Part shown: positions 4,478-38,700 of the stretch, piece by piece
Position numbering within the stretch: the first letter of the stretch is position 1
Layout of the letters: each line of letters starts with the position of its first letter
Assembly: GCA_947561395.2 (NCBI GenBank)
Contig: OX387192.1
Coordinates: forward strand, 10,576,221 to 10,640,220
DNA length: 64,000 bases
Reading direction: 5' to 3'
Source: Buxus sempervirens
Taxonomy: Eukaryota > Streptophyta > Magnoliopsida > Buxales > Buxaceae
Made by a program: the position numbers and the translations under genes
Notes under the pieces: model-generated
What the model was told of the DNA's origin: nothing
Seen by the model: the letters and a program-made list of their open reading frames with translations, nothing else
The model's database searches: none

Positions 4478-4608
4478 ACCGTATACACAGTACGGTCCAG
4501 TCCTGTCCGTATTCAAATTACGAGCAAGCTGTAACCGTATGCAATCCACGGGCGAGCCTAGCCCGTATAACCAATACGGGCAAGCCCAGCCCGTGTACTA
4601 AATGCGGT
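4478..4608. promoter_or_regulatory. 28-bp-period dyad array in leader (5 units)
   Basis: Units start at 4478, 4506, 4534, 4562 and 4590, an exact 28-bp period of 19-bp dyad plus 9-bp linker. Arms are YCCGTA/TACGGG-like with variable N7 centres; the last unit has CCCGTG with TGCGGT. It lies inside the transcribed leader, between the PBS and the hairpin array. Confidence 0.85.
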
Positions 4609-7278: not shown

Positions 7279-7487
7279 GGCAAACCCAGGGGTATGGTTG
7301 GTCCAAGGTTTGGCAGGATAGAGTTTCAGTTTGAGTTAAACATAAGATCATGTCAATCCTTTATCCACAAGGATAAATGAGATAATTCGAATGGATAAAT
7401 AAGAGGATTCGCTTATCCAAGAGAGATATTTGGGTGCAGATAAGGCTCAAAAATCAAAAAGGTAAAATTCGCACAAAGACCCCCGTG

Positions 7488-7590
7488 CCCGTATATATAT
7501 TACGGTCGCGCCCTGCCCGTATTATTAATACGGGCACGCCGTGACCGTATATCAACTGCAGGTATGACCAGTCCGTAAATAAAATACGGT
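7488..7590. promoter_or_regulatory. 28-bp-period dyad array in the variant U3
   Basis: Four 19-bp units start at 7488, 7516, 7544 and 7572, exactly 28 bp apart. Three fit YCCGTA-N7-TACGGK; the third has a degenerate right arm (TGCAGG). The N7 interiors are AT-rich and differ from unit to unit. The array lies about 210 bp upstream of the TATA box in element orientation. The sequence differs from the common-U3 array but the architecture is the same. Confidence 0.85.
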
Positions 7591-7693
7591 CATGACCAGT
7601 TTGGCCAGATTTTACACTTTTTTGACCTGTTTCAAATCCCAATTAATATTTTCAATTATTTTCTCATTTTTAGTGCAATTTGGGGTGTCTACA

Positions 7694-9050: not shown

Positions 9051-10862
9051 TGTAGACACCCCAAATTGCACTACAAAATGAGAAAATAATAAAAACATGT
9101 AATTAGAGCTTAAAACAGGTCAAAAAGGCCTAAAAATAGAATGAACAGGCTTTGCCCGTATTGGCTTCACGGGCCGATCTCGCCCGCAAAATATCTACGG
9201 GCAGGCGCGTCCGTAGTATTTATACGGTCCCCGTTGGACCGTAGTGTATTTACGGGCATTAAAGACACGTGCAAGTTTTGTCATCATCTCGATTTCCGAG
9301 CTTTATTTGAAGTCCAATATATCTTTAAACGAGCGGATTATGTCTTTTATTCGCTGAAGTCACCTTGGATGGCTATGGATGGGCATCATCTCTGTATTTC
9401 ACTCTATCCTGAGAATCAGGATATATCCTTCTGGACCAGCCTTGCCCCTGGGTGTGTCTATAAATAGAGGCTCATTCCTCTAGCTTAGGGCCACGAAATT
9501 TTGAGTCCAAGGAATTCTAAGAAGCTCCAAGAGAAGAACTCCTGCTGCCTGCCTGCTCAATCTAGGTAAGTCCCCTATCCCTTTTTATTTTCTGTCTTCA
9601 ATTCTAGATGTAATAGGATCATCTCTATTACAGTAGAATAAGGCCATATCTGTTTTTGTACTCCTAAACTTGTCTCCAAGTACCTCAAGGGTCTCTCTAG
9701 CCGTAAAACGTGAAGAGAGAACTAGGGGAAAGGGGAACAGGTGGATCCCTAGAATAGAACCCCATATCTGTTTTTTCTTTGTTTCATAGAATAAGGCCTG
9801 TGATTGTGTTTGTGTACCCAAACCTATCTCTAAGTACCTCAAGAGTCTCTCTAGCCGTAAAACGTTAAGAGAGAACTAGGGGAAAAGAGAACAGGTGGAT
9901 CCGTAGGGTAGACCCCCATGTGCTCTAATCTGTGAGATGTGGCTGTTTTAAATATCCTGATCATGTTTTAATGCTTTTTATGATATATCTGAATGAATAA
10001 CATGAATCTATGATGTTTATAGCATGAGATCCCCTATTTTTGATAAAATTTGGATTTTTGCCACTTTTGCACCTACAGCACTGTTTTCGTGATTTTTGTG
10101 GTTTTAGGCTAGGATCATGGATTTATCATGATCAATATGGTAGATCTGAATCCAGAAGCCTGAAAGTAAATTCTAGGGTTTCATGATGTGGTTTTTAAAT
10201 TGTTTTTCATTATTGAGAGAAGACCCTACGGTCTAAGTTCTCCCCTTTTTGGTGTTTTTCATCAACGTGGGTATTTTTGGTTTTTATTTTCTGATTTAAT
10301 GTGAAATTTGGGCTTTATCTATGTCCTGGACTATTCAAGTTCAATTTTGAAATATTTTATAAAAATCATATTTTTCTAGATTTCTAGAATTTTGACTTAA
10401 AGCCAGATTTTTGATTTTTCACTTTAAATTGATTTTATTTGATTTTACCTCAATTTTATTTTGATCATGAAACCCTAGGAATGGTATGATCATATTTGAA
10501 AGTTCTGGATCAATCAGACTATTCATGTGAAAAAACCATACAATTCTCTATTTTTTGTGAATTTTGTGATTTTTATAACAAGCTTTTTCCTTTAATTTAA
10601 CATGAACAAATACCTGGCAACCACCTTGTGTGGATGAATAGGGGTGCCTAACACCTTCCCCTGTTCATAACTTAATCCCCTTACCCATCTCTGGTTGGTT
10701 TTTTTTAGGAGGGATATTTTGCCCTAAAATTTGCCTTTTGTGCTTATTTAATATTTTGGTGTCCATTCACACCTAAATTGAATGGTGGCGACTCTTTGTT
10801 TTATATAATCCCGTGTGATGATTGAGGAAATCATTTAAATTGATTTTTTCCCATGTCTCACA
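9051..10862 (+). repeat. LTR A (common U3 type)
   Basis: It starts TGTAGACACC and ends CTCACA, 1812 bp. It carries the dyad array (9155-9256), TATAAATA (9459-9466) and a mutated splice donor TAG|GTAAGT at 9565/9566. R/U5 includes a tandem duplication of a block with CTCTCTAGCCGTAAAACGTGA. Confidence 0.85.
9155..9256. promoter_or_regulatory. 28-bp-period dyad array in LTR A (4 units)
   Basis: Units start at 9155, 9183, 9210 and 9238 (28, 27, 28 bp apart). Arms are CCCGTA/CACGGG, CCCGCA/TACGGG, TCCGTA/TACGGT and ACCGTA/TACGGG. It lies about 200 bp upstream of the TATA box. Confidence 0.85.
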
Positions 10863-10887: not shown

Positions 10888-10991
10888 TAGAGACACCCCA
10901 AATTGCACTGCCAAATGAGAAAATAATAAAAACATGTAATTAGAGCTTAAAACAGGTCAAAAAAGCCTAAAAATAGAATGAACAGGCTTTG

Positions 10992-11093
10992 CCCGTATTG
11001 GCTTCACGGGCCGATCTTGCCCGCAAAATATCTACGGGCAGGCGCGTCCGTAGTATTTATACGGTCCCCGTTGGACCGTAGTGTATTTACGGG
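10992..11093. promoter_or_regulatory. 28-bp-period dyad array in LTR B (4 units)
   Basis: Four 19-bp dyads with 28/27/28-bp spacing. The sequence is the same as in LTR A apart from linker changes. Confidence 0.85.
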
Positions 11094-11295
11094 CATTAAA
11101 GACACGTGCAAGTTTTGTCATCCTCTCGATTTCCGAGCTTTATTTGAAGTCCAATATATCTTTAAACGAGCGGATTATGTCTTTTATTCGCTGAAGTCAC
11201 CTTGGATGGCTATGGATGGGCATCATCTCTGTATTTCACTCTATCCTGAGAATCAGGATATATCCTTCTGGACCAGCCTTGCCCCTGGGTGTGTC

Positions 11296-12729: not shown

Positions 12730-13967
12730 CTTGTGGATTTCAGCTTTTTTGGTGTTTGTTCATGTTTTTGACTTTTTGATTTGCTTGCTATTTTGTGTTT
12801 TTAGCATGTCTTTGTTTTGCTTGCTGTTTGGTGTTCTTAAGCATGTTGAATATGTTTTAAATCTAAATTATTGCTTAAGAATTCATGGGGGTAGAACATG
12901 CTTAATTTTGATTTATAGGATTGTTTCTACAAACATGCGTAGGGGAGGTCCGTTTTGCTGAACCATGCTTATTTTTTGCTATATTTTTATAATAGCATGT
13001 TTTAATTTTCAGCATGATCTCCGTGATGATTTTGGGTGTATAACATGATGATATGTTTGCATGATAGATGATTTTTTTATGAGCATGTTTTAGGTGCTAT
13101 AGGATTGCTTTATTTACTTGTTTATTTTAAATATGCTTTCCTATTATGCCTTGGTTTGTTTATGCATGGCTGCGAAAAGAGTGGCAAGGGTCTGGGACGT
13201 TGTGAATGTAACCTATTTTTACAATGCACAGTGCACCTTTTACTTTTACACAGCCTACCCTTAACCTATAGGAAGTTGAACCCGAATGTGTGTAGCTTGG
13301 CGCAACGAGGTCGATACTTCGGAAAGCGAAAGTGAAAACATTCACCTTAGAACTTTGAGCTAATGATGTGATGATAACGTGGATCTGGGATTCTGGTCAT
13401 CACTAGGCTTGAGTGCTAAGTTGCCATTAAGCCAAAACCCAAAACCCCTACGCTTGAAGGTGGAGTTACACGTTTTTGGCTAAAGTACACAATTACGTGG
13501 GGATATGGGTTTGTATGATTGTGGAAAGGCCGTGTGCATGGCTTACAAACCAGGGCATAATGCGGATGCCATATTGAAGGTAAACAAGGTAACAAGGTAA
13601 TCCTATTGTTTTGCATTATTTTCATGTCATAGGGGTGTCATGGTGCCCATTGGTTCGGGATAAAATTGGTCCCAAAATATGCATTTTTTCTAAAGTTGGT
13701 GCAGCCCATAGGAAGAGTCTCTAACTCTGTTTAGAATCAATCCTACCCTATGTACACACAAGAGGCAACAAAAGGGTACCAAATTCTTGAGTATGGTGTC
13801 AATTCAGAGGGTACATGTGCCCTCCTAAGCATGTGTTTTAGCAAAAAGGCCAAGGTCCATTTTGGGACAGTTTAGAAGCTCTGCAATGGGTGAACCGTAC
13901 GTTTGGATGAACAATGAAAGTGATCAAACCATGTAAAAACTGGAAAAACATAACAGGGTTCCGTAAA
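12730..13967 (+). other. Leader, PBS-proximal part
   Basis: Untranslated stretch of about 1.2 kb. The first 400 bp hold about eleven CATG tetranucleotides, mostly as GCATG. The rest is unique-looking sequence shared with the left copy and the 21 kb element. Several short frames are conserved only because the DNA is. Confidence 0.65.
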
Positions 13968-14098
13968 ACCGCATTTAGTACACGGGCTGGGCTTGCCCGT
14001 ATTGGTTATACGGGCTAGGCTCGCCCATGGATTGCATACGGTTACAGCTTGCTCGTAATTTGAATACGGACAGGGCTGGACCGTACTGTGTATACGGT
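13968..14098. promoter_or_regulatory. 28-bp-period dyad array in leader (5 units)
   Basis: Units start at 13968, 13996, 14024, 14052 and 14080, all exactly 28 bp apart. Linkers follow a loose CTGGGCTTG-like consensus. This is the mirror of 4478-4608. Confidence 0.88.
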
Positions 14099-14254
14099 TT
14101 TCTTGGAATATTCAACTTTAATCAGTTTTTCCCACTAAAATCTTCCTTTAACCTTTAAATAATGATAAAGGGAAACAAGTTTGAATAAAATGCTTCAAAA
14201 AAAAATAAATAAATAAAAAATAATTGAAAAAAAAATGTGAGAGAAAGGTTCCTT

Positions 14255-20128: not shown

Positions 20129-21942
20129 TGTAGACACCCCAAATTGCACTGCCAAATGAGAAAATAATAAAAACATGTAATTAGAGCTTAAAACAGGTCA
20201 AAAAAGCCTAAAAATAGAATGAACAGGCTTTGCCCGTATTGGCTTCACGGGCCGATCTTGCCCGCAAAATATCTACGGGCAGGCGCGCCCGTAGTATCTA
20301 TACGGTCCCCGTTGGACCGTAGTGTATTTACGGGCATTAAAGACGTGCAAGTTTTGTCCTCCTCTCGATTTCCGAGCTTTATTTGAAGTCCAATATATCT
20401 TTAAACGAGCGGATTATGTCTTTTATTCGCTGAGGCCACCTTGGTTGGCTATGGATGGGCATTATCTCTGTATTTCACTCTATCCTGAGAATCAGGATAT
20501 ATCCTTCTGGACCAACCATACCCCTGTGTGTGTCTATAAATAGAGGCTCATTCCTCTAGCAAAAGGCCACGAAATTTTGAAGTCAAAGAAGTACAAGGAA
20601 CTCCGAGAGAAGAACTCCTGCTGCCTGTCTGCTCAATCCAGGTAAGTCCCCTATCCCTTTTTATTTTCTGTCTTCAATTCTAGATGTAATAGGATCATCT
20701 CTATTGCTGTAGAATAAGGCCATATCTGTTTTTGTATTCCTAAACTTGTCTCTAAGTACCTCAAGGGTCTCTCTAGCCGTAAAACGTGAAGAGAGAACTA
20801 GGGGAAAGGGGAACAGGTGGATCCCTAGAATAAAACCCCATATCTGTTTTTTTTTTGTCTTTTTCATAGAATAAGGCCTCTGATTGTGTTTGTGTAACCA
20901 AACCTATCTCCAAGTACCTCAAGAGTCTCTCTAGCCGTAAAACGTGAAGAGAGAACTAGGGGAAAAGGGGAACAGGTGGATCCGTAGGGTAGACCCCCAT
21001 GTGCTCAAATCTGTGAGATGTGGCTATTTTGAATATCCTGATCATGTTCTAATGCTTTTTATGATATATCTGAATGAATTACATGAATCTATGATATTTA
21101 TAGCATGAGATCATCTCTTTTTGCCAAAATTTGGATTTTTGCCACTTTTACACCTACAGCACTGTTTTCGTGATTTTTGTGGTTTTAGGCTAGGATCTTG
21201 GATTTATCATGATCAATATGGTAGATCTGAATCCAGAGGCCTGAAAATAAATTCTAGGGTTTCATGATGTGGTTTTTAAATTGTTTTTCACTTTTGAGAT
21301 AAGACCCTACGGTCTAAATTCTCCCTTTTTGGTGTTTTTCATCAACGTGGGTCTTTTTGGTTTTGATTTTCAGATTTAATGTGAAATTTAAGCTTTATCT
21401 ATGCCCTGGACTATTCAAGTTCAATTTTGAAATATTTTATAAAAATCATATTTTTCTAGATTTCTAGAATTTTGACTTGAAGCCAGATTTTTGGATTTTT
21501 CACTTTAAATTGATTTTATTTGATTTTATCTCAATTTTATTTTGATCATGAAACCCTAGGAATGGTATGATCATGTTTGATAGTTCTGGATCAATCAGAC
21601 TATTCATATGAAAAAACCATATATTTTTGCTTTTTTTTGATTTTGTGTGATTTTTATAACAAGCTTTTTCCTTTATTTTAAACATGAACAATACCTGGCA
21701 ACCACCTTGTGTGGATGAATAGGGGTGCCTAACACCTTCCCCTGTTTATAACTTAATCCCCTTACCCATCTCTGGTTGTTTTTTTTAGGAGGGATATTTT
21801 GCCCTAAAATTGCCTTTTGTGCTTATTTAATATTTTGGTGTCCATTCACACCTAAATTGAATGGTGGCGACTCTTTGTTTTATATAATCCCGTGTGATGA
21901 ATGAGGAAATCAATTAGATTTGATTTTTTCCCATGTCTCACA
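20129..21942 (+). repeat. LTR C, 3' LTR of the gag-only element
   Basis: Starts TGTAGACACC and ends CTCACA, 1814 bp, with dyad array, TATAAATA (20535-20542) and donor CAG|GTAAGT at 20641/20642. R/U5 contains a duplicated block of about 125 bp (about 20703-20835 and 20868-20995). It is followed by PBS and leader, which is abnormal for a 3' LTR. Confidence 0.85.
20233..20334. promoter_or_regulatory. 28-bp-period dyad array in LTR C (4 units)
   Basis: CCCGTA-N7-CACGGG, CCCGCA-N7-TACGGG, CCCGTA-N7-TACGGT and ACCGTA-N7-TACGGG, spaced 28, 27 and 28 bp. The arms contain CpG in an otherwise AT-rich U3. Confidence 0.88.
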
Positions 21943-22446: not shown

Positions 22447-24246
22447 TTAATGATTTCCTCAATCATCACACGGGATTATATAAAACAAAGAGTCGCTACC
22501 ATTCAATTTAGGTGTGAATGGACACCAAAATATTAAATAAGCACAAAAGGCAATTTTTAGGGCAAAATATCCCTCCTAAAAAAAACAACCAGAGATGGGT
22601 AAGGGGATTAAGTTATGAACAGGGGAAGGTGTTAGGCACCCCTATTCATCCACACAAGGTGGTTGCCAGGTATTGTTCATGTTTAAAATAAAGGAAAAAG
22701 CTTGCTATAAAAATCACACAAAATCACAAAAAGAAGATAAAAATATATGGTTTTTTTCATATGAATATTCTGATTGATCCAGAACCATCAAATATGATCA
22801 TACCATTCCTAGGGTTTCATGATCAAAACAAAATTAAGATAAAATCAAATAAAATCAATTTAAAGTGAAAAATCCAAAAATCTGGCTTCAAGTCAAAATT
22901 CTAGAAATCTAGAAAAATATGATTTTTATGAAATATTTCGAAATTGAACTTGAATAGTCCAGGATATAGGTAAAGCCCAAATTTCACATTAAATCAGAAA
23001 ATCAAAACCAAAAATACCCACGTTGATGAAGAACACCAAAAGGGGAGAACTGAGACCGTAGGGTCTTCTCTCAATAATGAAAAACAATTTAAAAAACATC
23101 TCATGAAACCCTAGAATTTATTTTCAGGCTTCTGGATTTAGATTTATTATATTGATCATGATAAATCCAAGGTCCTAGCCTAAAATCACAAAAATCACGA
23201 AAATAGTGTTGTAGGTGCAAAAGTGGCAAAAATCCAAATTTTGGCAAAAAGAGCGGATCTCATGCTATAAACATCATAGACTCATGTCATTCATTCAGAT
23301 TCATCATAAAAAGCATTAAAACATGATCAGGATATTCAAAACAGCCACATCTCACAAATTAGAGCACATGGGGGTCTACCCTACGGATCCACCTGTTCTC
23401 TTTTCCCCAAGTTCTCTCTTCACGTTTTACGGCTAGAGAGACTCTTGAGGTACTTAGAGATAGGTTTGGTTACACAAACACAATAACAGGCTTTATTCTA
23501 AAAGAAAAAGAAAAAAAACAGATATGGGGTTCTATGCTAGGGATCCACCTGTTCCCCTTTCCCCTAGTTCTCTCTTCACGTTTTACGGCTAGAGAGACCC
23601 TTGAGGTACTTGGAGACAAGTTTAGGGATACAAAAACAGATATGGCCTTATTCTACAGCAATAGAGATGATCCTATTACTTCTAGAATTGAAGACAGAAA
23701 ATAAAAAGAGGATAGGGGACTTACCTGGATTGAGCAGGCAGAGCAGCAGGGATTCCTTTCCTTCTCTTGGAGCTTCTTAGAATTCCTTGACTTCAAAATT
23801 TCGTGGCCCTTAGCTAGAGGAGAGAGCCTCTATTTATAGACAAGCCCAGGGGTATGGTTGGTCCAGAAGGATATATCCTGATTCTCAGGATAGAGTGAAA
23901 TATAGAGATGATGCCCATCCATAGCCATCCAAGTTGACTTCAGCGAATAAAAGACATAATCCGCTCGTTTAAAGATATATTGGACTTCAAATAAAGCTCG
24001 GAAATCGAGAGGATGACAAAACTTGCACGTGTCTTTAATGCCCGTAAATACACTACGGTCCAACGGGGACCGTATAAATACTACGGACGCGCCTGCCCGT
24101 AGATATTTTGCGGGCGAGATCGGCCCGTGAAGCCAATACGGGCAAAGCCTGTTCATTCTATTTTTAGGCCTTTTTGACCTGTTTTAAGCTCTAATTACAT
24201 GTTTTTATTATTTTCTCATTTTGTAGTGCAATTTGGGGTGTCTACA
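22447..24246 (-). repeat. 3' LTR of the 21 kb element (terminal bases missing)
   Basis: Aligns without gaps to 41642-43441. The last ~25 bp of the LTR are replaced by the junction at 22399-22446. It contains the dyad array at 24041-24142. Confidence 0.85.
24041..24142. promoter_or_regulatory. 28-bp-period dyad array in 3' LTR (4 units)
   Basis: Four dyads with the same spacing as in the 5' LTR (43236-43337). Confidence 0.85.
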
Positions 24247-24262: not shown

Positions 24263-24597
24263 TGGTAATTGGAACCAATTACAAGCAGAGAGCAAAAAGA
24301 CCCACCAATTGCACCTTCTGAGATTTTTGTATAATCAATTGCACTTTGCAAGGATTAGATGGATGATTTTTGAAAAAAGAATTGATTGTGGAAGATTTGC
24401 TAAGAAATCCCTCAGCTTAAGGGCCAAATCTTCCTCTCTCCTCTCACTGAGCACTTGTGGGCTATGAAGTGAGATTTGAGAAAATTTTTTTTAACAAAAG
24501 TGGGTAAGGTGGCAATCCTTGCAACTTACAACTAATATAAACATTGATCTCCTAAAAATTGTGAAAAAATGATAAAAATATGCAATTTTTGGCTTCG
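24263..24597 (-). other. Subterminal region shared with gag-only elements
   Basis: Non-coding. It matches the reverse complement of about 19800-20112. It holds repeated TGCAATTG-like words and the AATTGG/CCAATT inverted repeat beside the PPT. Shared ends would let both element types be processed by the same machinery. Confidence 0.65.
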
Positions 24598-24699
24598 CCC
24601 GTATTTGGCTTACGGACAGATCCTGCCCGTAGAGGGTTTACGGGCGACCGGGACCGTATGGATTTCACGGGCATTTGATGCCCGTACTGAGTTTACGGA
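24598..24699. promoter_or_regulatory. 28-bp-period dyad array at head of antisense gene 1 region (4 units)
   Basis: Units start at 24598, 24626, 24653 and 24681. Arms are CCCGTA/TACGGA, CCCGTA/TACGGG, ACCGTA/CACGGG and CCCGTA/TACGGA. One further dyad with N8 lies at 24773-24792. It is followed by an 8-bp inverted repeat AGTTCGCG-AA-CGCGAACT (24716-24733). Its position suggests a promoter for the plus-strand gene that starts at 26107. Confidence 0.8.
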
Positions 24700-26106
24700 T
24701 TTTACTCTCTTCTTAAGTTCGCGAACGCGAACTTTTTCTCTTCTGCTCGCATTCAAGCCCTAATTCTCTGCGACCGTATCTTCTCCTACGGTTTTCCATT
24801 CTTCTTTTTCAACAGTGACTTGTCTTCTATTTCCGACGAGCTTCTCATTTTCCGGCGACTCTCTTCCTCCGGGGACCTCTGTTCTCCATTGATTCCGGCG
24901 GCTTCATTTCTCGGCTATTCTCACATTCTCCGGCAACAACTTACTCATTCGGCCTTGTCATTTTTTTGTCAGAATAGTGGTGTCTTCGACGACTATCAAC
25001 TTCTCCTTGCGACAGTGACCTTGCCGAGACTGCTTCCTTTCACTCCAAGTATCACTCAAACATCTCCTGTGAGTGGGTTTGAAGCTTCCCTTTCTATTTT
25101 GCAAACTTCTCATTCGACCCACACAGGTATGTCGAACAGTAGCTTTCACCTTAACTATTTTGACTGAGAATCATTGTTCAAAATCCATGACTGAATGAAC
25201 ACAATGATTTTTTATTGTTTCTGCTCAATTTACAGAGTTCTTCAACACCTTTTCTGATCATATGAAATTGAATGACTTGTGTCTCATGAACCAAACTCTT
25301 ATGCTGTTAATTCCTGTCTGAATATGATTGCAAATTTTTGAATGAATGCACTAGTACTTGAATGGCCAAACTCCCTCAAATTTTGGCTTGTTCATCATTA
25401 TAGGCTGCCAATTTCCTTGCCAATGACACCTATGAGAATGTAATGCTTCTGGATTCATGTTTGACCCATGCTCAATTTTCTCAGTTATTGAACTGCTGTG
25501 CTGCCTTGTTGAAATCATGTTTTGATTGGTGCTGTATTTTTCATGATTTTGATGCATGCTAGTAGACTTTTGTATGCTCAATACCAGCTTCCAGACCGTT
25601 GCTTTAAGTTTCTTGAAACTTTGCTTTGATCATGGGATGCTAGATGATTGCTCACCCATGCATTTTTTTAGAAAATTGGTTTTGACCAGCTTTCTGAATC
25701 TGTAATCGAATAAGTCTAAACTTGATGAGCAGTTCTCTTACCACAATCACAACACAATTAGGCTTGAATTTCCGTCCTGAAACCAAAATACAAAAGAGAA
25801 GATTAAAATCAATCCTTAACACACATATCTTTTTTTTTTGTGATATAAATAGAATATATAGGAAGCCTAAACTTTCTACATATAATTTTTATATATTTTC
25901 TTGATTAAAGCAAAGACAAGTAAATAAAACAGTAAAATTTCTCCAAACATAAAAATAAACTCCTTCTGATTTGATTGGGAGTTTCTGAATCATTTTCTTC
26001 CATTTTCCATTTTCTTTTTCCTGTAAATCAATTGATCTTGGTTATAATGATTAATCAAGCAACTAAAAATTTAAATAATTAATCATCTCCCTGATTTGAA
26101 CCGTAG
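24700..26106 (+). other. Probable 5' UTR and leader intron of antisense gene 1
   Basis: No TATA box is clear after the array. A donor-like CACACAG|GTATGTCG lies near 25126, and an acceptor-like TAG sits immediately before the ATG at 26107, so a leader intron of about 980 nt is possible. The 115-codon frame at 24820-25167 looks like UTR rather than protein. Confidence 0.4.
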
Positions 26107-29030
26107 ATGGCCCGCCTTAGATCGGCTTCTCGAGATCCTGCAGATGAGCCTTCCTCCTCGAGGGTTAGGCGAGATCCTGCTGATGTGGCCTCGTCTTCGA
26201 GGGCTGAGAGGGATTCCGATTCTGATATCCCAGATTTCCCTTCTGGGGATTCGCGTGAGGCGACCCCAGAGGTATACTCTAACCTTTCTGCAATTTCCTA
26301 TCCTTTCCCAAAATACATCTTCCTGATTCTCCCATTATTTTCTTTTAGCCGGCTGTTGAGGCTTCTGGCAGAGATAGGAGCCGTAGCAGACGCAGAGCTG
26401 GAGGCAGAGATGGAGGCCATGATGAGGGCCATAGAGGAGGCTGCAGAGGGGGCCGTGGCAGGGATGAGGCCAGGACCAGGGTTGAGATCCCTGAGGAGGT
26501 GGCTGCCCAGATTAGGGACACCGATCTTCTGCATGGCTTGAGGACTCATCCCTCAGCATGCGTTAGGGCGGATATCCCTTTGGAGTATCCGATGTCCCAT
26601 TATAGAGGGAGCTGGGCCAGCTTCACTAGATTTTTGAGAGCTTGCAGTTCGGCCTATCGTCGGGAGCTAGGATTGTACGGTTTCGGCATGTTTATCACCA
26701 TCCCGGACGTTCGCTTGGATCGAGCCCTCATTGCAGCATTATTGGAGAGGTTTTTCCCAGAGACCTTGAGCTTCCACTTCCCAGATATTGAGATTGGGAT
26801 CCGGCCTTCTGATTTCACGCTCATCACCGGGATTAGGATGATCGGTGATGTTATTACTGAGATGGCGATGCCAGAGGCCGATGAGATTGCTGGTTATCTT
26901 GGATACATTGTGCTGCCTCCTGAGGCCTGGGATCGGGGGAGAGCTAGATTGTCTCTGACATGGTTGAGAGAGACTTTCCGGAGGAGGCAGTTTGGCCAGC
27001 TTGCTGCCGGTGATCACGTATTCCCCTTCGCCTTCAGATTTCTTTTTCTGTATATGATGGGATCCTGCTTCTTCCCAGAGGACACGACTTCAGTTAGTCC
27101 TCACTTCTTGAGTCTTCTGGGAGATTTGCAGTGGGCGAGGAGGTACGCCTGGGGCCCACTCATATTTGGTACTATTCTGGCTGGCCTGCGCCGATCAGTG
27201 AGTGGCCTCTCTACATCCAGAGGGGCTGGAGTTGGATGCCGGTTCTTCTGGCCTTTTCTGCAGGTGAAATGTTTATTTTCTTTTTTTTTTCACTCTTTCT
27301 CTTTTCCTTATCTCTCTTTTTCTATTCTTCTGACTATTTTCTTCTTTCTTGTAGTTTTTTGCTAGGGTTTATATACCCTATTTCCGCCCTACCTCTACGA
27401 TGCCTGAGGAGACGTATCCTATGGCACTTAGATGGTGTCATGTAGAGCACGACTCTGAAAAGAGTCGTCCCAGGTCCGTCCGGGCCCACTTGGACAGGTT
27501 GTATCGGTCTGAGGTAATCTTCTTTAATTTCTCTACTTTCTTCTTTTCTTTTCTTCCTGTACTCGCATATCTGATGTCTTGTTCTGTTTTTCAGCTATTT
27601 GTCCCCAGGATGGAGGACATTCATGAGGTGCTAGCCCTGCAGGCAGCCAGAGATGATGCATTTGTCCCTGACCAGAGACGACAGAGATACCAGTTCTTTA
27701 TTGGTCAGCTGGGCAGCATCTGGTATTGCGGTGAGCGCTTCTTCTTTCAGCATGTGGGAGAGCCACGGATTCCTACCATCCCGCCAGATACTACTCCTTT
27801 CTATCCTCCTATGCCTGTTGATCCTGCCCAGTTCTTGGATTGGACTGAGGCAGAGACATTATTGGAGGAGGGTGACTATGATGCCTGGTTCAGGCGAGCT
27901 TCTGTTGGGTGCCTCATGTCACCCATGCCTGTCCGTGGCGGAGTCACGGAGATAGGAGGGGTAGTGATTAGGGCCTACGACACCACGGTATGCCTTCTTC
28001 CTTCTCTGATCTTCTATTTCCATTTCATTAGCATTTTTTTCGGACTTCTTTCTTTGCTATTTCAGGAGGCTCAGTTGGCAGAGATCAGGTCTCGCTATGC
28101 TGATTTAGAGCGCCAGCGTGATGCAGCGATCGCTGAGCGGGACGCCCTCTATATCACTATTTCCGATCTCCGGGGGCAGCTAGCCAGAGCCCAGGGCCAG
28201 GAGGGTCCATCTGATGCACAGGACCAGGCGGGTCCGTCTGATACTCAGGTTAATTTCTTCTTTTATTTCCATTCCTGCTTTTGTATTAGCCTATGTTGTT
28301 CTGACTGAATTTTTTTTCTTAGTTTCAGGAGTACACAGCTGGTCCCTCTTCACCTACTTCACCCGTGCCTATGCATTTCCGGGATGAGGTGTTTTCTGTG
28401 GCACGGGTGGAGTTCGTGACGTCTCCCAGTCCAGTGGAGGTTCCTGCAGCAGAGCCCGAGATCGAGGCTGATATTGTACCTGCTGCTGAGGACGTGCCAG
28501 AGTCTGCCCCAGTAGCTGAGACTGCTCCTGCTACATCTGTTGGTGTTGATATGGATTCCGCTATGGACGCCGCTGTGGTAGAGCCTACCGTGGAGACTGC
28601 CGTGATGGAGGAGGCTACAGCTGATCCTGTAGAGCCCGAGGTGGAGATGACTGCTACTGAGCCTGTGGAGCCGGAGGTTGATGTACCTGGGACATCTGCT
28701 CCTGCTGGTCCTGTTAGTCCTGATATGGAGGATGCGGAGGTGACACATGCTGCTGTTGATCCTTCTGCGGATTCTTCCCGTACAGATTCTGATCCCGATT
28801 CTACGGGATATGTAGATACTTCAGGGTACGTCCCTCCTGATCATCCCACTGCTGGTCTTGTGCCTTTATATATGTGGCATGATATTCAGTCTGTTTTGAG
28901 CAGGATGACGCGTAGCACGGCCCGCAATGTTGTGTGGCATGTCTTTGAGCGCCGGCGATCTACAGGCCGTGGTCGAGGCAGAGGACGAGGCCGTGGCCGT
29001 AGGAGCGGACCTGCATGGCCATTAGATTAG
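26107..29030 (+). CDS. Antisense gene 1: plant-mobile-domain (PMD) protein, six exons, ~840 aa
   Basis: Predicted exons: 26107-26271, 26349-27263, 27355-27513, 27595-27987, 28066-28248 and 28323-29030. All introns have GT-AG borders with pyrimidine tracts and all are phase 0, and the joined frame stays open. The first ~120 residues are Arg/Ser/Gly-rich. A region typical of the plant mobile domain (aminotransferase-like) follows in exons 2-4, with motifs such as FHFPDIEIGIRPSDFTLITG and WCHVEHDSEKSRPRSVRAHL. Then come a short coiled coil (exon 5), an acidic Pro/Val/Glu-rich tail and a Gly-Arg C-terminus. It runs opposite to the retroelement, between integrase and PPT, where Tat-lineage elements are known to carry extra frames. 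The function is unknown; cellular PMD proteins (MAIN/MAIL1) act in transposon silencing. The last acceptor is ambiguous (28323 or 28329). Confidence 0.75.
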
Positions 29031-29234
29031 GATTCTTCCATGTACCTTTGTATTTTTTTGCAAAAGTGATGTAAACATTCATATATATAAAAGAAGTTTG
29101 TTTTATTTCCATTTGTGTTCTTTCTTCTTTATTTACAGTATTTATTATCTGATGAATGTTAAAACAGGGACAGGTGAAGCTTAGGGAAACCAAAGAAATT
29201 AAAAATTCCCATTTTTTTGCATTTTTTCGAAGGA
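29031..29234 (+). other. 3' UTR of antisense gene 1
   Basis: AT-rich stretch with TATATATAAAAG and TTTGTTTTAT words suited to polyadenylation. No gene seen. Confidence 0.4.
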
Positions 29235-29364
29235 ACCGTACTTATACTACGAGCAGGCTGTGCCCGTAAAGTTATTACGGGCGTACTTTGCCCGTGAAAT
29301 TTTCACGGTCAGGCGTGTCCGTAATTCCTATACGGGCGAGCCTTGCCCGTAATATAATTACGGA
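29235..29364. promoter_or_regulatory. 28-bp-period dyad array in promoter of antisense gene 2 (5 units)
   Basis: Units start at 29235, 29263, 29291, 29318 and 29346. The third has CCCGTG paired with CACGGT, which keeps a complementary arm by changing both sides. The array ends 23 bp before the TATA box of the gene. Confidence 0.88.
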
Positions 29365-29387
29365 ATTTACTGTCTTACGATTTTTTC

Positions 29388-29486: not shown

Positions 29487-31209
29487 ATGGCTTCCCCTAC
29501 GCCGCTTTCTCCTGCCTTTGAATCTCCTCCTGCAAGACAACCTGTTAGATCAAAACCTCCTAATCTTACCAGGTACAATATTGTGGATTCCTTTTATGAT
29601 AGATGGGTTAACTCCATGACCCTTGATGAGGAGATTCGTTGGGATTCCATTCACTTAGGGCACATCCTACACCTCCCTAAAATTCCCTTTAAGTGGGAAA
29701 TCATTGAAGCTTTGATAGGCCATTGGGTACCTGAGCTGAATCTCTTCCGTTTTGATGATAAAGAGATGACTCCTACCATAGAAGAGATTGAAACCATCCT
29801 TGGCCTTAGATTTTCTGAAAAAGTTGTGAACCCACCCCTAAAGCTTAGTTATAAAAAAGAGGCTTCCACTTTCTTGGGTATAGGGAAGAAGGACTTAGGA
29901 AATTCTGATGCACTATTGACCTTGTCCAAGACCTTTTTGACTGAAAAACTTCTGAGGAGTAATGACAAGGACTCTAGGTTTAATGCATTGATCCTGATAG
30001 TGGTCAATCAGCTGCTTTTTCCACGGGGTGATGACCAGGTTGACTTGGCTCTCATCTCAGTTATCTGTCAGGTTAGGGAACGCGAGAGGTTGGCCCCTAT
30101 GATCCTAGCAGAGATATATCAGGCTCTTACTGATTGTTATTTCAGGAAGAAGAAACGCTTCCTTGCCTGCGCCCCTATCCTACAGGTAAAATATGCATAT
30201 ATTTTTTTTCTTCTATTTTTTTTTTCTATTCTTCCTTTCCTTTCTTTCTTTTTTTTTTTCTTTTTCTTTTTTTTTTCTTTTTGGAAATAAATTAAAATAC
30301 TCCCTTTTTCTGCAGCTTTGGTTGCTTGACCATCTTAGCCAGGTTGAAGAAATAACTCGCCGCTTCTTTCCAAGATTGAAAGTTCCTGTTTTGATGAGCA
30401 ATAGGGGATGTCCTAACATCCAAGGTGGCAAGCAAGGCTGGTTCACTTTCTTGGGTACTCTCCAGGATGATCAAGTGAGATGGCCTGGCACTTATCAGCC
30501 CACTCTAGAGACAGTGATCAGCTTTAGAGATAAAAACTTTCTGGCCCTAGCAGGCTTGAAATCTGCTGTTCTCTATCTTCCTTTGAGGGTTCTTCGGCAA
30601 TTTGGAGCGACCCAGGGAATTATGATTCCCACAGGTTATGAGAGCTTTATAGGGCCACTTACTTCAGCCACCATGGGGTTAAATGCTTAATTAATGAAAG
30701 AGTGGTCCTATGTTTGCTTTCTGCGGGGTCCAGTCTTTTCTGAGTCCCATGTGAAGGACTATCACTTCTGGATCAAGGAACAGGTGCAGAGTCATGCCCC
30801 AGTACCAGAGGATCCTCCTGCAATTCTTCCTCCTACTTATGAGGACATTCTGGAGTCAGAAAGGGCAACCCATAAGCGGCTTCAACAAATATGGGTACGG
30901 GAGGCTCAAGAACTTAGGATAAAAGTCCTTGTTCTGGAGAGGAAGCTTGAAGAGCAGAAGTCTGGCCGCATTGCCATGGAGAAGAAACTTGAAGAACAAA
31001 GGCAGGCTCGTCGCTTTGAAGTCCGTGTGATGCGGAAGAAATATCAGGATTCCTTGGCTGACCTTAGGGCGTTGAAGATCAAGCTTTCTTTTTCAGATGA
31101 GGTCATCTCCTTTTTGAGTGATCCTGATGCAGAGGGTGCTTCTGGAATCATTGCAACTCAGGCAGCTAGGATTAGGGAGCTTGAGGAGCAGTTAGGGAGT
31201 AGGGATTAG
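29487..31209 (+). pseudogene. Antisense gene 2: DUF7745-like protein with C-terminal coiled coil, two exons, one stop
   Basis: Exon 1 is 29487-30185 (start MASPTPLSP), the intron 30186-30315 (GT-AG, with a very long pyrimidine tract), exon 2 30316-31209, phase 0. The exon 1 region with FDDKEMTPTIEEIETILGL and FALI-like/VNQLLFPRGDDQVDLALI features resembles the plant family I know as DUF7745. Exon 2 continues it (LWLLDHLSQ, RRFFPRLKVP, RQFGATQGI). A coiled coil fills the last ~130 residues. An in-frame TAA at 30688-30690 breaks the frame between domain and coiled coil; the reading frame resumes directly after it. It may be a recent nonsense mutation or give a truncated product. The role is unknown. 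Confidence 0.65.
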
Positions 31210-32163: not shown

Positions 32164-33519
32164 TCATGGAAAATATCTCTTTACTGCATCAGAGTTGATT
32201 GGCTCAGGAAAATCCTTCCCATCCATTTCTGTTAAGATGAGAGCACCCCCTGATAGGACTTTCTTGACCACATAAGGTCCTTCCCAATTTGGTTTGAACT
32301 TTCCACGAGGATCTTCCAAAAAGGGTAAAATCTTTTTTAATACCAAATTTCCTTCTTGGAAAGTTCTGGGCTTCACCTTTTTATTGTAAGCCCTAGCCAT
32401 CCTCTTCCGATATAATTGGCCATGACTAAGTGCCTTCAAACGCTTTTCTTCAATTAAATTGAGTTGATCATGTCTAGACCGTATCCATTCAGCTTCTTCT
32501 AATTCTGCTTCCATTAGCACTCTTAGTGAAGGTATTTCCACCTCCACTCGTAAAACTGCTTCCATTCCATAAACTAAAGAGTATGGAGTTGCCCCTGTAG
32601 AAGTCCGGATTGAGGTTCTGTAAGCATGTAGAGCAAGTGGCAGCATTTCATGCCAATCTTTGAAACTCACTACCATTTTCTGAATAATCTTCTTTATATT
32701 CTTATTTGCTGCTTCCACTGCCCCATTCATCTTTGGTCTGTAAGGCGCTGACTTGTGGTGGGTAATCTGAAATTGTTCACACATCTTCCTCATGTCTTTG
32801 TTCTTAAGGTTTGAAGCATTGTCTGTTACTATGGCACTTGGCAAACCATAGCGGCAAATGATGTTGTGCTTCAAAAACTTAATAACATGGCTACTCGTAA
32901 TGTTTGCATAAGAAGCCGCTTCTACCCACTTGGTAAAATAATCGATTGCTACAAGTATAAACCTGTGTCCATTTGATGCCTTTGGAGAGATCATTCCAAT
33001 GACATCTATACCCCACATAGAAAAGTGCCACGGAGACGTCATACTGTGTAATTCACTTCGGGGTGCATTCTTGTTATCTGCGTACACTTGGCATAAATGA
33101 CACCTTTTAACGTGCATATAGCAATCATGCTCCATAGTCGACCAGTAATATCCCAATCGCAGAATCTTCTTGGCAAGCATATGCCCATTCATATGGGGTC
33201 CACACACTCCTCCATGTACGGTTTCAACTATCCTTTCTGACTCAGTTTTTGCAACACATCTAAGTAGTATATCATTGTGTGATCTTTTGTACAACTGTCC
33301 ACCACTTAGTAAGAACTGTCCTGCCAACCTCTGTATTGTTCTTTTTTCTGTAGAGGTGACATTTTCTGGTAAGCTCCGATCATTTAGGAAGTTCTTAATG
33401 TCTTGAAACCATGGTACTTCTTCTTCTGGGGTTTCTTCTAGAACAAGGCAGTAAGCTGGTTCATCCCTGACTTCAATTTCCAATGGTCTAATATCAACCC
33501 CTTCTGGCATACTGACCAT
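32164..33519 (-). pseudogene. Integrase part of Tat pol (451 codons)
   Basis: Integrates the element cDNA. Near the N-terminus is an H2C2 zinc finger (HMNGH...CHLCQVY). The catalytic core has Asp in WGIDVIG (about residue 170), Asp in VTDNASN (about 230) and Glu in GAVEAAN (about 266), so the DD35E triad is intact. The C-terminal domain ends at KRYFP (GPY/F-like WEGPYVVKKV). It is separated from the RNase H part by a single in-frame TGA at 33520-33522, so in the living ancestor this was one polyprotein. Confidence 0.9.
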
Positions 33520-33522
33520 TCA

Positions 33523-34389
33523 AGCCAATGTTGCCAGAGCATCTGCAAACTGATTTTTGGCCCTTGGCATATAATTGAAGGAAATTCGAGTAAACTTGGT
33601 GCTTATTTCTTCCAAATACTGGTGATAGGGGATCAATTTATGATCCTTGGTTTTCCATTCACTAGTTGTTTGGAAGATGATAAGACTCGAATCCCCATAT
33701 ACGTCAAGTTCCTCTACTTCATGGTCTAAGGCAGCTTGCAACCCAATTATGCATGCTTCATACTCTGCTATATTGTTCGTGCATTGGAACCTTAACTTCA
33801 CTGCGATTGGGATATGTGCCCCATCTGGCTTGATCAATACAGCCCCTATTCCATTTCCATTCATATTGGCGGCCCCATCAAAAAACATTTGCCATGAGCT
33901 TTCACCTTCTTCCTCTTCAGCAAACAGGATTGCCTCATCAGGGAAGTTGGTCTTTAAGGGTTGGTATTCTGGTAAAGGGTGTGCAGCTAAGTGATCTGCA
34001 ATAGCTTGACCCTTAATGGCCTTCTGTGTGATATAGGTGAGGTCAAATTCAGAGAGTAACAACTGCCACTTTGCTGTTCTGCCAGTTAAAGCTGGTTTCT
34101 CAAATAGATACTTCAAAGGGTCCATGCGGGATATCAATAAGGTGGAATGACTAAGGAAATAGTGCCTTAGTCTCTGAGTTGCCCATACTAAAGCACAACA
34201 AGTCTTTTCCAAAGGGGAATACTTTGCTTCATATTCTGTAAATTTCTTACTCAGGTAGTAAATCGCCCTCTCCTTTCTGCCTGTGTCGTCATGCTGTCCT
34301 AAGACACACCCCATTGATGTCTCCAAAACAGACAAGTATAGGATTAGTGGCCTTCCTGGAGTTGGTGGTACTAGCACGGGTGGGTTTAA
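33523..34389 (-). pseudogene. RNase H and second (archaeal-type) RNase H part of Tat pol
   Basis: The first ~130 codons are the Ty3-type RNase H/connection region (RHYFLSHSTLL, DPLKYLFEKPAL). Then comes a second RNase H with FFDGAANMNGNGIGAVLI, NNIAEYEA and YGDSSLII. The dual RNase H is a hallmark of the Tat lineage. It is bounded by in-frame stops TAA (34390-34392) and TGA (33520-33522), both single-base nonsense changes relative to the expected frame. Confidence 0.88.
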
Positions 34390-35790
34390 TTAGTATTCCT
34401 TTATTGTGTCAAAGGCTTCTTGGCACTCATCATTCCAGACTGTCGGGTTATTCTTTCTTAAAAGTTTGAAAATTGGTTCACAGATAGCGGTGAGCTGTGC
34501 TATGAACCGGCTTATGTACTGAATCCTCCCAAGAAAACCCCGAACTTCCCTCTCGGTTCTGGGTGATGGCATTTCAATGATGGCTTTAGCTTTAGCTGGG
34601 TCAATCTCAATTCCCCTTCTGCTTACTATAAAACCCAATAATTTTCCTGATGTAGCCCCAAAGACACACTTAGCAGGGTTAAGCCTTAGACTGTATTTCC
34701 TAAGCCGGTCAAATACCTTCTTCAAGTTGATCAAGTGGTCTTCTTCTTCACATGATTTGGCTATCATATCATCCACATAAACCTCCATCTCCTTATGGAT
34801 CATATCATGGAATAAGGCTGTCATGGCCCTCTGGTAGGTTGCCCCAGCGTTCTTAAGTCCAAATGGCATGACAGTGTAGTGGAAGGTACCCCAAGGGGTG
34901 ATAAAGGCTGTCTTCTCTTGGTCTTCCTTAGCCATCTTAATCTGATTATACCCAGAAAACCCATCCATGAATGAAAACAGGCTATGTACAGCGGTGTTAT
35001 CCACCAAGATGTCTATGTGTGGAAGTGGAAAATCATCCTTTGGACTTGCCTTATTCAAATCTCTATAATCTACGCACATTCTGACCTTTCCATCCTTCTT
35101 TGGTACTGGCACTATATTTGCAAGCCATTCGGGGTATGTGGACACTGCTAAGAATCCAGCTTGGAATTGCTTAACCACTTCATCTTTAACCTTTAATGTC
35201 CATTCAGGTTTTAACCTTCTCAGTTTCTGCTTAACTGGCTTGGCATCTGCTAGGATGGGTAGCCTGTGTACCACCATATCTGTGTCTAACCCCGGCATAT
35301 CCCGATACGACCATGCAAACACATCTTCATAATCAGCCAAAAATCGCATCATTTCATCCCGCTGTACCTCAGATAGGCATACCCCAATCTTCACTATTTT
35401 TGGGTCATCTTCGGTCCCTAGGTTGATAGATATGGTCTCTTCAATATTGGGTTGGACCCCCTTTTCATGACGCTTTAATTGATATGTGATTTCTTTTGGA
35501 ACGTCGTCTTCTTCGTCCTCGGTCTCTTCTTCCACCTCCATTAGGTCAAAGTCGAGCTCAAGGTCGAAGTCATACTCATCCTGGTCAAATTCCGTTTGCT
35601 TATATGGTTCATAAATGGTTTGGACCTTTTTGAAAAATTTATCTTTTCTAGAAAAAACTGAAAAATCTTTTTGTGTTATTTGAGAGCCTTCTACAAAATC
35701 TTTCCCTGAAGACGAAGGCTCATTAAAACCTTCAGGAAAAGGGCATTCCACTAATGGAGTTTTTTTTTGGAAGCCATGTCTGTTTGCCAA
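34390..35790 (-). CDS. Reverse transcriptase part of Tat pol (466 codons)
   Basis: The N-terminal ~110 residues are an acidic linker. The RT follows with RMCVDYRDLNKASPKDDFPL, FMDGFSGYNQI, the catalytic YVDDMIAKS (about residue 340) and FLGRIQYISRFI. The catalytic Asp pair is intact. The frame lies in -1 relative to gag-protease, which it overlaps by 40 nt at an A9 run. It ends at a nonsense TAA just before the RNase H region. Confidence 0.88.
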   Translation of the reverse strand: MANRHGFQKKTPLVECPFPEGFNEPSSSGKDFVEGSQITQKDFSVFSRKDKFFKKVQTIYEPYKQTEFDQDEYDFDLELDFDLMEVEEETEDEEDDVPKEITYQLKRHEKGVQPNIEETISINLGTEDDPKIVKIGVCLSEVQRDEMMRFLADYEDVFAWSYRDMPGLDTDMVVHRLPILADAKPVKQKLRRLKPEWTLKVKDEVVKQFQAGFLAVSTYPEWLANIVPVPKKDGKVRMCVDYRDLNKASPKDDFPLPHIDILVDNTAVHSLFSFMDGFSGYNQIKMAKEDQEKTAFITPWGTFHYTVMPFGLKNAGATYQRAMTALFHDMIHKEMEVYVDDMIAKSCEEEDHLINLKKVFDRLRKYSLRLNPAKCVFGATSGKLLGFIVSRRGIEIDPAKAKAIIEMPSPRTEREVRGFLGRIQYISRFIAQLTAICEPIFKLLRKNNPTVWNDECQEAFDTIKEY

Positions 35791-38700
35791 ACAAACGCGG
35801 CTTCAAAAGTAAGGGGAGTTTCCTCCCAATTATTCAGAATGAAAGAATCTGGGGCAGGGATACAAGCCTGCTCCTCGAGCTCATGGTCTGCATCAGAAAT
35901 CACCAGTACTGGGTGAGTTGCATTGCCTGCTTCTTCAGTAGGGCCAGTTCCAGATGGAACTTCTACTGCAGCCCAATCAATAAAAGGTAGCTCCTCTGCT
36001 ACTTTTTCTTGGTCGCCTTCTGTCATGGCAAAGAATGCCCCTACGTCCTCAGAATAGTCCTGCTCCTGTTCTGCCTGTGGCCCAGGCCCACCAGATGCTT
36101 GAGGAGGTGGAACACATGGTTGTATTGTGGAGGGTTTGGGTTTCTGGAATGGGTTGACATTGTAGTATGGAGGTTTAGACTGATCCTCAGGAGGAGACAT
36201 CTGAATCATGTGAGACAGCTTAGGAAAAGTTTCCCTGATGTGCGGGAATTTCATAGCTTCTATCTGCCCCTGTCTTCTCCATTTCCTTGGCTTGGACCCC
36301 AATCCTGCTCTGTGAACCATCTTCTTAACCTGAACTGGTTCTATCCTTCCTTGTAGGTTAATCCCCAGACCTTTTCCAGGGTGAAAATGGTACTTTTCTA
36401 ATACATTTTTGACCATTTTTTCAGCACAGGTCAATTTTCCTTCTTTTTGCTGATACCCCCTAGGTATATAATTCACAGCTTCAAATTGAAAAGAGTGAAA
36501 CGCCATTTTATCTGCTGTCATTTCCGTGTTAATACAGGGTACATCAGGGGACCACATGGGGGGAACCAAGTTTTCGGCCAGGACGGTAATCACCTTTTGC
36601 CCTCTAATGTACTTGACTCTTTGGTGGAGAGTAGATGGTATAGCCCTAGCTGTATGAATCCACGGCCTTCCTAGGAGTAGGTTGAAAGCCGCAGGTATAT
36701 CCATCACTTCAAATGTGATGTTGAAAATATACGGTCCAATTGTGACCGGCAGTTCAACCTCCCCTAGGGAGTGTGTTTTAGAGCTGTCAAATGCTCTTAT
36801 AATTCTTCCATTTTGTTTTATTTTGTTTCGCTCCAGATTGAGCTTAGCAAAGGTTACTAATGGGCAGACATTGAGGGCTGACCCATTATCAATCAAGACC
36901 CGGGCTATCATGCAGCCCTTACTGAGCACAGCAATGTGCAATGGATCCACATGATGGTATCCTGCTGGACTAATTTCCGTCTCAGAAAAGGTTATGACGT
37001 TATGGGATAAAATTTGACCAACCATCCGGCCTAGTTGGTCTGGTTCAATGTTTTTAGGCACATGGGCCCCCTGGAGTATCCTTAACAAGGAGTCCCTATG
37101 TTTTTCAGAATTTAACAATAGGCCCAGTATTGAGATCTGGGCAGGGACTTTGTTCAACTGCTCGATGACATTGAACTCACTCTTTTTTATTACCTTCATG
37201 AGGTCAGCAGCCTCACTGTTAGTTACCTGAGGGGCCTCTTCCCCTACTTTGGCCTTGCCTTTATTTTTTTCTTCTTCTTTATCATTCTCTGTTTCTTTCT
37301 GTTTTTCTTCCACCCCTACACACTTTCCTGACCTCATCATAAGGTTTACTTCTTCCTTGCTTTCAACTGCAGGGCATGTAGTGGTAAATGCTTCACTGTA
37401 GTTCCATGGTACAGCCGATTCAATGTAGGAAGGCTTAGGGACGTTTACCACCAATGGGGGAAGTTTGGACTTGGAAATGGAAGTCTGAGTAATAGGCACA
37501 TTAACAACCCATGGAGGAAGTTGTTTTGGTTGGGGGTTTGCAGAAGTGACTGATGCACTAAGGGGGTCACAATTTATGACCAATGGTGGCTTAGACTGAA
37601 TGGGCGGAGTAAAAGTGGATGGATGGCAATTAATGACCAAAGGTGGCTTGGTGATGTTCATCTGGGCCATGAGGGATGAGACCCGGTCCAAAGATGAGCT
37701 AATGTTCTTTGCAGCACTATCATTCCCCTTTGAAATCATATTTATTTCTTTGCCTTCACTTCTCCTGTCAAAATATACTTTGACCGTTGTCCCTATGGGA
37801 GCAATTAATTGAGATGGGTCAAAGGTTATTTTGTCAGAAGAGATGACTCCTATGACATTAGATGGGCCTGTCCCGTGATGCTGGGGCAGTGGGTTTTGTC
37901 CAATATCCGTTCTTGGAGGATTGGAAGCCCCTGTATTGAAAGACAGGGTATTCTGGTCTAGTAAATCCTGAATGGCATGTTTCAAAGGCCAGCACTTGTC
38001 TGTAGGGTGCCCAGGTGCACCCATATGGTAATCACAAGTGGTGGAGGGGTCAAAATTTCTCCCCTTAGATGCATTCGGATTAGGTTCTCTTAAGGTGATA
38101 TACCCTCCTTGCAATAAAGTGGGCAGCAATTGAGAGGGAGTCATTGGAATAGGGGTGAAAACCCTATTTCTCCTTGCTGCAAAATAGGCATCCTTTTCCT
38201 CTTTGGTAAAAACCCTTTTTTGGTCTGAAGGTGCTGCTGGAACATTGACCCTCATAGGGGCCTGGGTGGATGGAGATGGAGCAGGTACGTTGATTTGTAT
38301 GGGCTTGTTAGGGCCAGATGGTGGCTGTACCATGTTTACCTCACCCTCCTTCTTGTTCCCATTCTTTTTTGTCCCACTTCCTTTCTTTAGGTTGGGGTCC
38401 TGCTGGCTAACCATGGCAGAGTGGTCAATTATCTTACCTGACCTTATTCCATCCTCAATTCGGTCAGCCACCTGAACCAAAGCTGCAAAATTAGTGGTGG
38501 TCTGACCCACCAAGTGGCTGTAGAATGGTTGACCCAAAGTGCTTATGAAGGTAGAAATCATTTCCTGTTCTAGCATGGGTGGCCTGACCTGGGAGGCCGT
38601 CTCCCTCCACCTTTTGGCATATTGCCTTACAGTCTCTTCCCTTCCTTTGCTCATTCTCATGACGTCGTACCTATCTGGCATGATCTCTGAATTGAACCGG

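Follow-up and report, generated by a model that had tools for sequence, protein, structure and literature searches.

Short dyads that recur in tandem along the retrotransposons of the 64-kb stretch of Buxus sempervirens DNA analysed here (the window) raise the question of what such arrays are for and, if they are read by a protein, which protein that would be. The answer proposed below, from one window of one genome and from its sequence only, is that the arrays probably form a platform on which one dimeric protein binds and regulates the element promoters.

Periodic arrays of an alternating half-site

The core of the dyad, CCGTA-N7-TACGG, occurs 54 times in the window with at least 8 of 10 matches; 20 dinucleotide shuffles gave 5.45 on average and never more than 12. 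At 9 or more matches out of 10 there are 42 dyads (shuffle mean 0.35), and perfect ones number 25, with none in the shuffles. Within the window, the motif is thus far more clustered than in shuffled sequence. Eleven arrays hold 48 of the 54 dyads (25 perfect, 17 with nine and six with eight matches), including all 42 with at least 9 of 10 matches; the eleven arrays and the roughly 48 dyads reported by the first-pass annotation were both recovered, each array at its annotated place. The other six dyads (7944, 27933, 47660, 50015, 50920, and 53970) are isolated, which is about the number expected by chance.

Within arrays, dyads follow each other at 28 bp in 30 of 37 cases and at 27 bp in seven, so that the 28-bp period described before is real and its supposed strictness is not. 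A pattern of three half-sites has 26 matches in the window, whereas 100 shuffles produced none. Exact half-sites are found 69 times in the 1260 bp of arrays and 58 times in the remaining 62740 bp, where their density of 0.92 per kb is lower than the 1.40 that base composition predicts and shows no enrichment. Inner gaps of 0-20 were scanned for core dyads. A gap of 6 gave six dyads with at least 8 of 10 matches and a gap of 8 gave nine, none of these nine in any array; with at least 9 of 10 matches, the gap of 8 gave four (shuffle mean 0.05), all isolated and one of them perfect (24774), and a gap of 17 gave 11, all in LTR bodies outside the arrays.

The repeat unit was analysed on one array per near-identical class, which leaves five arrays and 22 dyads out of the 11 arrays and 48 dyads. 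The five classes differ in their spacer sequences and share the same half-sites and spacing. The conserved form is GnCCGTA-N7-TACGGnC, with G at position -1 in 18 and C at position +19 in 20 of the 22 non-redundant dyads, and with a free position 0, which can be C, A or T on the left arm. This outermost C/G had been part of the 19-bp form proposed initially, CCCGTA-N7-TACGGG, which is exact in only six of the 48 dyads and has to be replaced. The conservation of the arms around a free 7-bp centre was described correctly: the inward-facing gap is always 7 bp in the 48 array dyads, and both centres and linkers drift. The outward-facing gap between dyads is 7 or 6 bp. Centre to centre, half-sites of one dyad lie 14 bp from each other, and those that face each other across a linker 14 (or 13) bp, forming an alternating ladder. 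Conservation falls on a 7-bp half-site, GnCCGTA, whose orientation alternates approximately every 14 bp. The dyad centre is 75% AT and the inner linker 40% AT. At 14 bp, or 1.33 turns, neighbouring half-sites would fall on different faces of the helix. An asymmetry between the left and right arms (changed positions 9/110 versus 3/110, p=0.13) was considered and dropped.

The carrier elements and their antisense genes

The LTRs of the carrier elements, here called E, F1, and F2, open with TGTAGACACCCC, one of the six starts being altered, and the PBS TGGCGACTCTGCTGGGGA comes after the LTR end. This PBS may be complementary to tRNA-Arg, as would be expected of an Ogre element. The two LTRs of element E are 99.56% identical over 1800 bp, and a purine-rich, PPT-like stretch precedes the 3' LTR. 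Its pol region holds an additional RNase H, with RT_RNaseH followed by RVT_3 in 33520-34389 and the integrase core in 32164-33519, and two matches to PF10536 (26349-27263 and 29487-30185) lie on the + strand, opposite to gag/pol on the - strand. An aRH between RH and INT, together with a PMD extra ORF in 57% of elements, has been described for Ogre (PMC6317226, in the passages covered). Judging from these predicted domains, element E is an Ogre-type Tat element (Ty3/gypsy) with two putative antisense PMD genes, aORF1 and aORF2.

Downstream of its PMD, aORF1 encodes a coiled-coil-like stretch, an acidic region, and an RG-rich C-terminal tail (exons and coiled coil read by eye). It has a possible 5' UTR intron with a donor near 25126. 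In aORF2, a weak further PMD match lies in 30190-30690 and a stop at 30688-30690, after which a coiled-coil-like stretch follows, also by eye. This in-frame stop, and others between adjacent same-frame ORFs of pol (32164-35802), indicate that this copy of element E is not intact, despite its near-identical LTRs. A PDB sequence search with both PMD exons returned no matching chain, and a PMD piece and an RT piece used as protein queries found no relatives in viral contigs.

Elements F1 (1-7693, cut off by the left edge of the window) and F2 (10888-21944) are related to E and approximately 96% alike over 7.7 kb. Both have kept gag and the arrays in LTR and leader. No RT-core, integrase, or PMD match was found in F1 and F2 within the window, in which F1 is incomplete, and short pre-RT remnants are all that is left; they are apparently gag-bearing deletion derivatives belonging to a non-autonomous Ogre subfamily. 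That F2 keeps its arrays without an integrase, PMD, or RT-core match is what would be expected of a factor acting in trans.

Other repeats share the window. Chromovirus-type elements at 45819-56225 (chromodomain, Tf2-1-like SH3) contain isolated dyads only, and a 203-bp repeat of 97.5% identity lies in the same region (45819-46021 and 56023-56225). A 107-bp tandem repeat is present in three copies, with 94% matches, at 58177-58491.

Arrays at likely promoters, leaders, and antisense genes

Six of the 11 arrays are in LTRs, three in 5' leaders, and two before the antisense genes, one each (Table 1). All six LTR starts that were found are followed by an array, in line with the initial claim that every Tat LTR has one; a placement bound to LTRs does not hold, given that five of the 11 arrays stand in leaders or before antisense genes. 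Element E carries five of them, in both LTRs, in the leader, before the putative 5' UTR of aORF1, and before aORF2. Read in element sense, the array before aORF1 precedes the 3' LTR of E by approximately 350 bp.

A TATAAATA box is found 202-211 bp downstream of the array in all six LTRs (204 bp in the 5' LTR of element E). At aORF2, whose ATG is at 29487, the array is followed on the gene side by a TATATAA that begins 25 bp away; the background of TATAWAW is 0.083 per 100 bp on the + strand. TATA matches are also present on the opposite side of two arrays (29235 and 10992), and none was found within 300 bp of the array before aORF1 or of the leader arrays. The isolated N8 dyad next to the former may or may not be part of the platform.

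Table 1. Arrays, elements, and genes in the window.
Feature	Position	Strand	Remarks
Element E 5' LTR	41615..43441	-	Begins TGTAGACACCCC; PBS TGGCGACTCTGCTGGGGA at 41597-41614
Element E 3' LTR as matched	22447..24246	-	Match stops short of LTR end
gag + pol of element E	32164..39457	-	gag, G-patch, RT, RNase H + second RNase H, integrase
aORF1, putative antisense multi-exon gene	26107..29030	+	PMD exon 26349-27263
aORF2, putative antisense gene	29487..31209	+	Exon 29487-30185, DUF7745/PMD
LTR array, 4 dyads (28/27/28)	43235..43338	-	U3 of element E 5' LTR, ~104-207 from LTR start
LTR array, 4 dyads	24040..24143	-	U3 of element E 3' LTR
Leader array, 5 dyads, spacing 28	40261..40393	-	Between PBS and gag, element E
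Array before aORF1, 4 dyads (28/27/28)	24597..24700	.	Directly before CT-rich putative 5' UTR of aORF1
Isolated perfect CCGTA-N8-TACGG dyad	24774..24791	.	Putative 5' UTR of aORF1, 76 bp past 24597..24700 array
Array between aORF1 and aORF2, 5 dyads (28/28/27/28)	29234..29365	.	
LTR array, 4 dyads	7487..7591	-	Element F1; its U3 ~60% identical to that of E
Leader array, 5 dyads	4477..4609	-	Element F1
LTR array, 4 dyads	9154..9257	+	LTR B (9051-10864)
LTR array, 4 dyads	10991..11094	+	5' LTR of element F2
LTR array, 4 dyads	20232..20335	+	3' LTR of element F2; array to which the first-pass annotation was attached
Leader array, 5 dyads	13967..14099	+	Element F2
Second leader dyad array	3621-4315	-	
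Second leader dyad array	14260-14954	+	
Second leader dyad array	39630-40103	-	

Conservation of the half-sites between diverged copies

From position 396 onwards, the LTR of F1 matches the 5' LTR of E with 97.7% identity (1392/1425), but in U3 only about 60% of positions agree. Across these U3s the half-site core is identical at 38 of 40 positions and the rest of the array at 23 of 48 (Fisher p=1.3e-6), the latter count leaving out the eight free positions (3/8 identical); the arms are thus far from diverging freely between copies. Identity in the flanks of the array is 54/79 and 108/184, and 263 masks slid over the same alignment gave a mean of 0.63 and a maximum of 0.865. Since the alignment may itself be anchored by the half-sites, the evidence for constraint is strong, not conclusive. 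The U3 module appears to have been exchanged between these two LTRs (7693 to 5865 in F1, 43441 to 41615 in E), which are approximately 98% alike beyond the TATA region.

In the leader arrays, the core is identical at 50/50 positions between F1 and E and the rest of the array at 75/84 (p=0.026), with similar values for F2 and E (49/50 and 76/84). Between F1 and F2 there is no difference between core and spacer (49/50 and 83/84). Taken whole, the leader arrays are no more conserved than the surrounding leader (125/134 versus 1214/1270, F1 and E).

A predicted platform and its candidate binders

Each array would form a platform for four to five protein dimers, made of 8-10 GnCCGTA half-sites of alternating orientation at approximately 14 bp, with the AT-rich N7 inside each dimer site and the GC-richer linker of 6-7 bp between sites. 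The same arrangement stands in U3 some 200 bp ahead of the LTR TATA box, again in the leader preceding gag, and once more before each of the two antisense PMD genes. With the same platform at all these places, one dimeric factor could act on all transcription units at once, which would also account for the retention of arrays in F2, an element without antisense genes. The dyad had been read from the start as the site of a dimeric protein, and this reading is supported by the fixed inner gap (48/48), the conserved cores, the drifting centres, and an arm covariation that does not exceed that of shuffles. From these features we infer protein binding, dimerisation, and an effect on transcription.

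The preferred candidate for the binder is one or both of the PMD proteins of the element itself, acting in a self-regulatory or anti-silencing loop, although this assignment is tentative and has a somewhat less than even chance of being right. The predicted architecture of these proteins comprises a PMD head, a coiled-coil-like region, and an RG-rich tail (the tail in aORF1). A fuller version, in which homo- or heterodimers of the antisense PMD proteins would bind the GnCCGTA ladder in the LTR, in the leader, and in the promoters of their own genes, and so form a VANC-like, sequence-specific circuit of self-activation or anti-silencing, is possible and rather doubtful. PMD-A clades have been described as Gypsy-specific, and an anti-silencing role has been speculated for the PMDs captured by MULEs (PMC5418596). 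Silencing is the process in which host PMD genes act, the function of the PMD domain being called undetermined in the literature covered, and whether the MAIN/MAIL1/PP7L complex directly recognises a DNA motif was left open in the covered part of PMC7156037. No binding of PMD to DNA, nor any DNA target of a PMD protein, is reported in the literature passages covered.

Instead of the PMD proteins, a dimeric host transcription factor, such as a stress or developmental regulator, may read the arrays, which would then be host sites collected in the promoters of the element. This possibility comes close behind the PMD proteins and is nearly as likely. Retrotransposon LTRs often carry sites for stress-related factors, sometimes in tandem (PMC2829016, in the part covered), and the location of the arrays upstream of TATA boxes, in six of six LTRs and at aORF2, is consistent with a host factor. 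Against it speaks the lack of half-site enrichment outside the arrays, a comparison confined to the window and its base composition. We know of no plant factor with a GnCCGTA half-site that could be named with confidence.

DNA site or RNA hairpin

A dyad can also act as a hairpin in RNA. As has been suggested for the palindromes of Sireviruses, the arrays could function in the genomic RNA of the element, with a role in its packaging or processing or in the production of small RNAs. This is unlikely. Seven folds of five of the 11 arrays (two on both strands) beat shuffles, with z from -4.2 to -9.7, but good folding is expected of any dyad array. Small RNAs have been reported at Sirevirus palindrome clusters (Bousios 2016, cited in PMC10760457, covered in part). 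The covariation of the CCGTA arms, on the other hand, is no better than in shuffled sequence (score 0.126 versus 0.132 over 22 dyads, with both-side changes in 2 cells versus 2.6), which favours DNA recognition over RNA hairpins. In sense RNA the changed core pairs would be wobble in five cells and broken in five, with no difference in antisense RNA. The free position within the half-site is paired in 11 of the 22 dyads, and the retention of G at -1, beyond that free position, fits base contacts and not a continuous stem.

A second tandem dyad, TCTGAAA-GCCTTTGAA-TTTCAGA in sense orientation, is found in the leaders just before gag, in 16, 16, and 11 copies spaced by 34-63 bp. Its loop is mostly conserved and its stems covary (TCTAAAA/TTTTAGA, TCTATAA/TTATAGA), with a score of 0.317 versus 0.170 that was reached in 0/500 shuffles (21 of 43 copies aligned, nine distinct). 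Both-side changes (2 versus 1.2, reached by 166/500 shuffles) and pair types are not so distinctive, the latter not being above shuffles, and the changes in this dyad may stem from few events. Its covariation, in nine distinct rows only, indicates that the test is able to detect RNA-like change here, which counts against hairpins at the CCGTA arms. The pattern of change resembles that of a DNA site in the CCGTA ladder and, in the neighbouring leader dyad, rather that of an RNA hairpin.

CpG content and host silencing

Each arm holds a CpG amid AT-rich DNA, as had been pointed out in the first-pass annotation, and the observed/expected ratio of CpG is 1.14-1.79 in the arrays, 0.29-0.73 in their flanks, and 0.46 in the whole window. 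With two CpGs in most dyads, the arrays might be sites that let the host recognise the element and silence it, by CpG methylation or by a repressor. This is somewhat more unlikely still, because such sites should tend to disappear from an element, yet the half-sites are kept across divergent U3s. Protection of CpGs among copies was also considered and dropped: decay to TG/CA affects 2 of 52 array cells and 10 of 81 cells outside in the LTRs (p=0.13; four of the six LTRs compared, three other changes set aside), and 3/39 in arrays and 6/69 outside in the leaders, with no protection in the latter.

That the arrays are a neutral minisatellite spread by duplication is very improbable: tandem arrays are common in the sister Tat clade Retand (PMC11963269, in the part covered) and elsewhere in the window, but here the unit interiors differ from each other while the half-sites stay fixed, and substitutions between divergent copies avoid the half-sites.

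Relation to known systems

The carrier element is neither a Sirevirus nor a VANDAL/VANC element. In Ty1/copia elements the integrase precedes RT, whereas in element E it follows RT/RNase H. VANDALs are DNA transposons of the MULE type, whereas E is a gag/pol retrotransposon, and a Pfam scan of 20 of the 25 listed ORFs found no match to a MULE transposase.

In form, the nearest precedent is nonetheless the Sirevirus group (Ty1/copia), and the first-pass statement that no description of the array was known was too strong. According to the covered part of PMC2829016, palindromic repeats are arrayed in Sirevirus LTRs ahead of the TATA box, and more such boxes precede an extra gene; palindromic boxes cluster in the same manner in the six of six LTRs studied here, the TATA box lying downstream at the distance given above. 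Both systems are also CpG-dense, with a core conserved against diverged flanks and with CGG/CCG in the arms (PMC2829016). They differ in superfamily, and Sirevirus motifs such as CACCGGACTGTCCGGTG have short centres (PMC2829016). The Ogre array, unlike that of Sirevirus, has a 7/7 spacing on a 14-bp ladder, recurs in the leader, and flanks antisense PMD genes instead of an env-like gene.

In proposed logic, the nearest precedent is the VANDAL/VANC system, known from VANDAL21 of Arabidopsis (PMC5735166, in the part covered). There too, one element family has a short motif arrayed in several of its non-coding regions and encodes candidate or proven regulators; the tandem repeats and the motif diverge together (PMC5735166). 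The VANC21 motif has a single orientation and its binding is proven (PMC5735166), whereas the Ogre half-sites alternate in orientation and their binding is predicted, and PMD is a protein family other than VANC.

Within the Tat lineage, Retand has antisense genes between pol and the 3' LTR with a proposed DNA-binding regulatory role; these encode TRP28 instead of PMD, and a dyad array or LTR motif was not found described in the covered text of PMC11963269. Ogre elements with PMD eORFs (PMC6317226, PMC5418596) are of the same lineage and have the aRH and the PMD extra ORF, without mention of a cis-element array in the parts covered. No description of a dyad array in Tat/Ogre LTRs was found by literature search in the passages covered, although one may exist, and those matches to the motif string that were looked into are unrelated to the array. 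Viral contigs yielded two stretches, each with a single exact dyad and no array, and genome contigs yielded three Streptomyces records with a longer exact pattern; both collections are without plant genomes, and this outcome carries little weight. A plasmid search with DNA and a phage search with protein gave no match.

Implications for Tat elements and PMD proteins

Because it is conserved and stands in the leader and the LTR promoter region as well as ahead of the PMD genes, the array is a concrete candidate DNA target for PMD proteins. If the circuit proposed above is true, it would be the first DNA target of a PMD protein among the literature passages covered, and regulators of this kind would have a common ancestry with the host proteins MAIN and MAIL1, which are silencing factors today. 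If the binder is a host factor instead, the array would name the signal by which some of the largest plant retrotransposons are activated. Should PMD bind the array, the reason for which giant Tat elements have antisense genes could be tested directly, and so could anti-silencing and the origin of MAIN/MAIL1.
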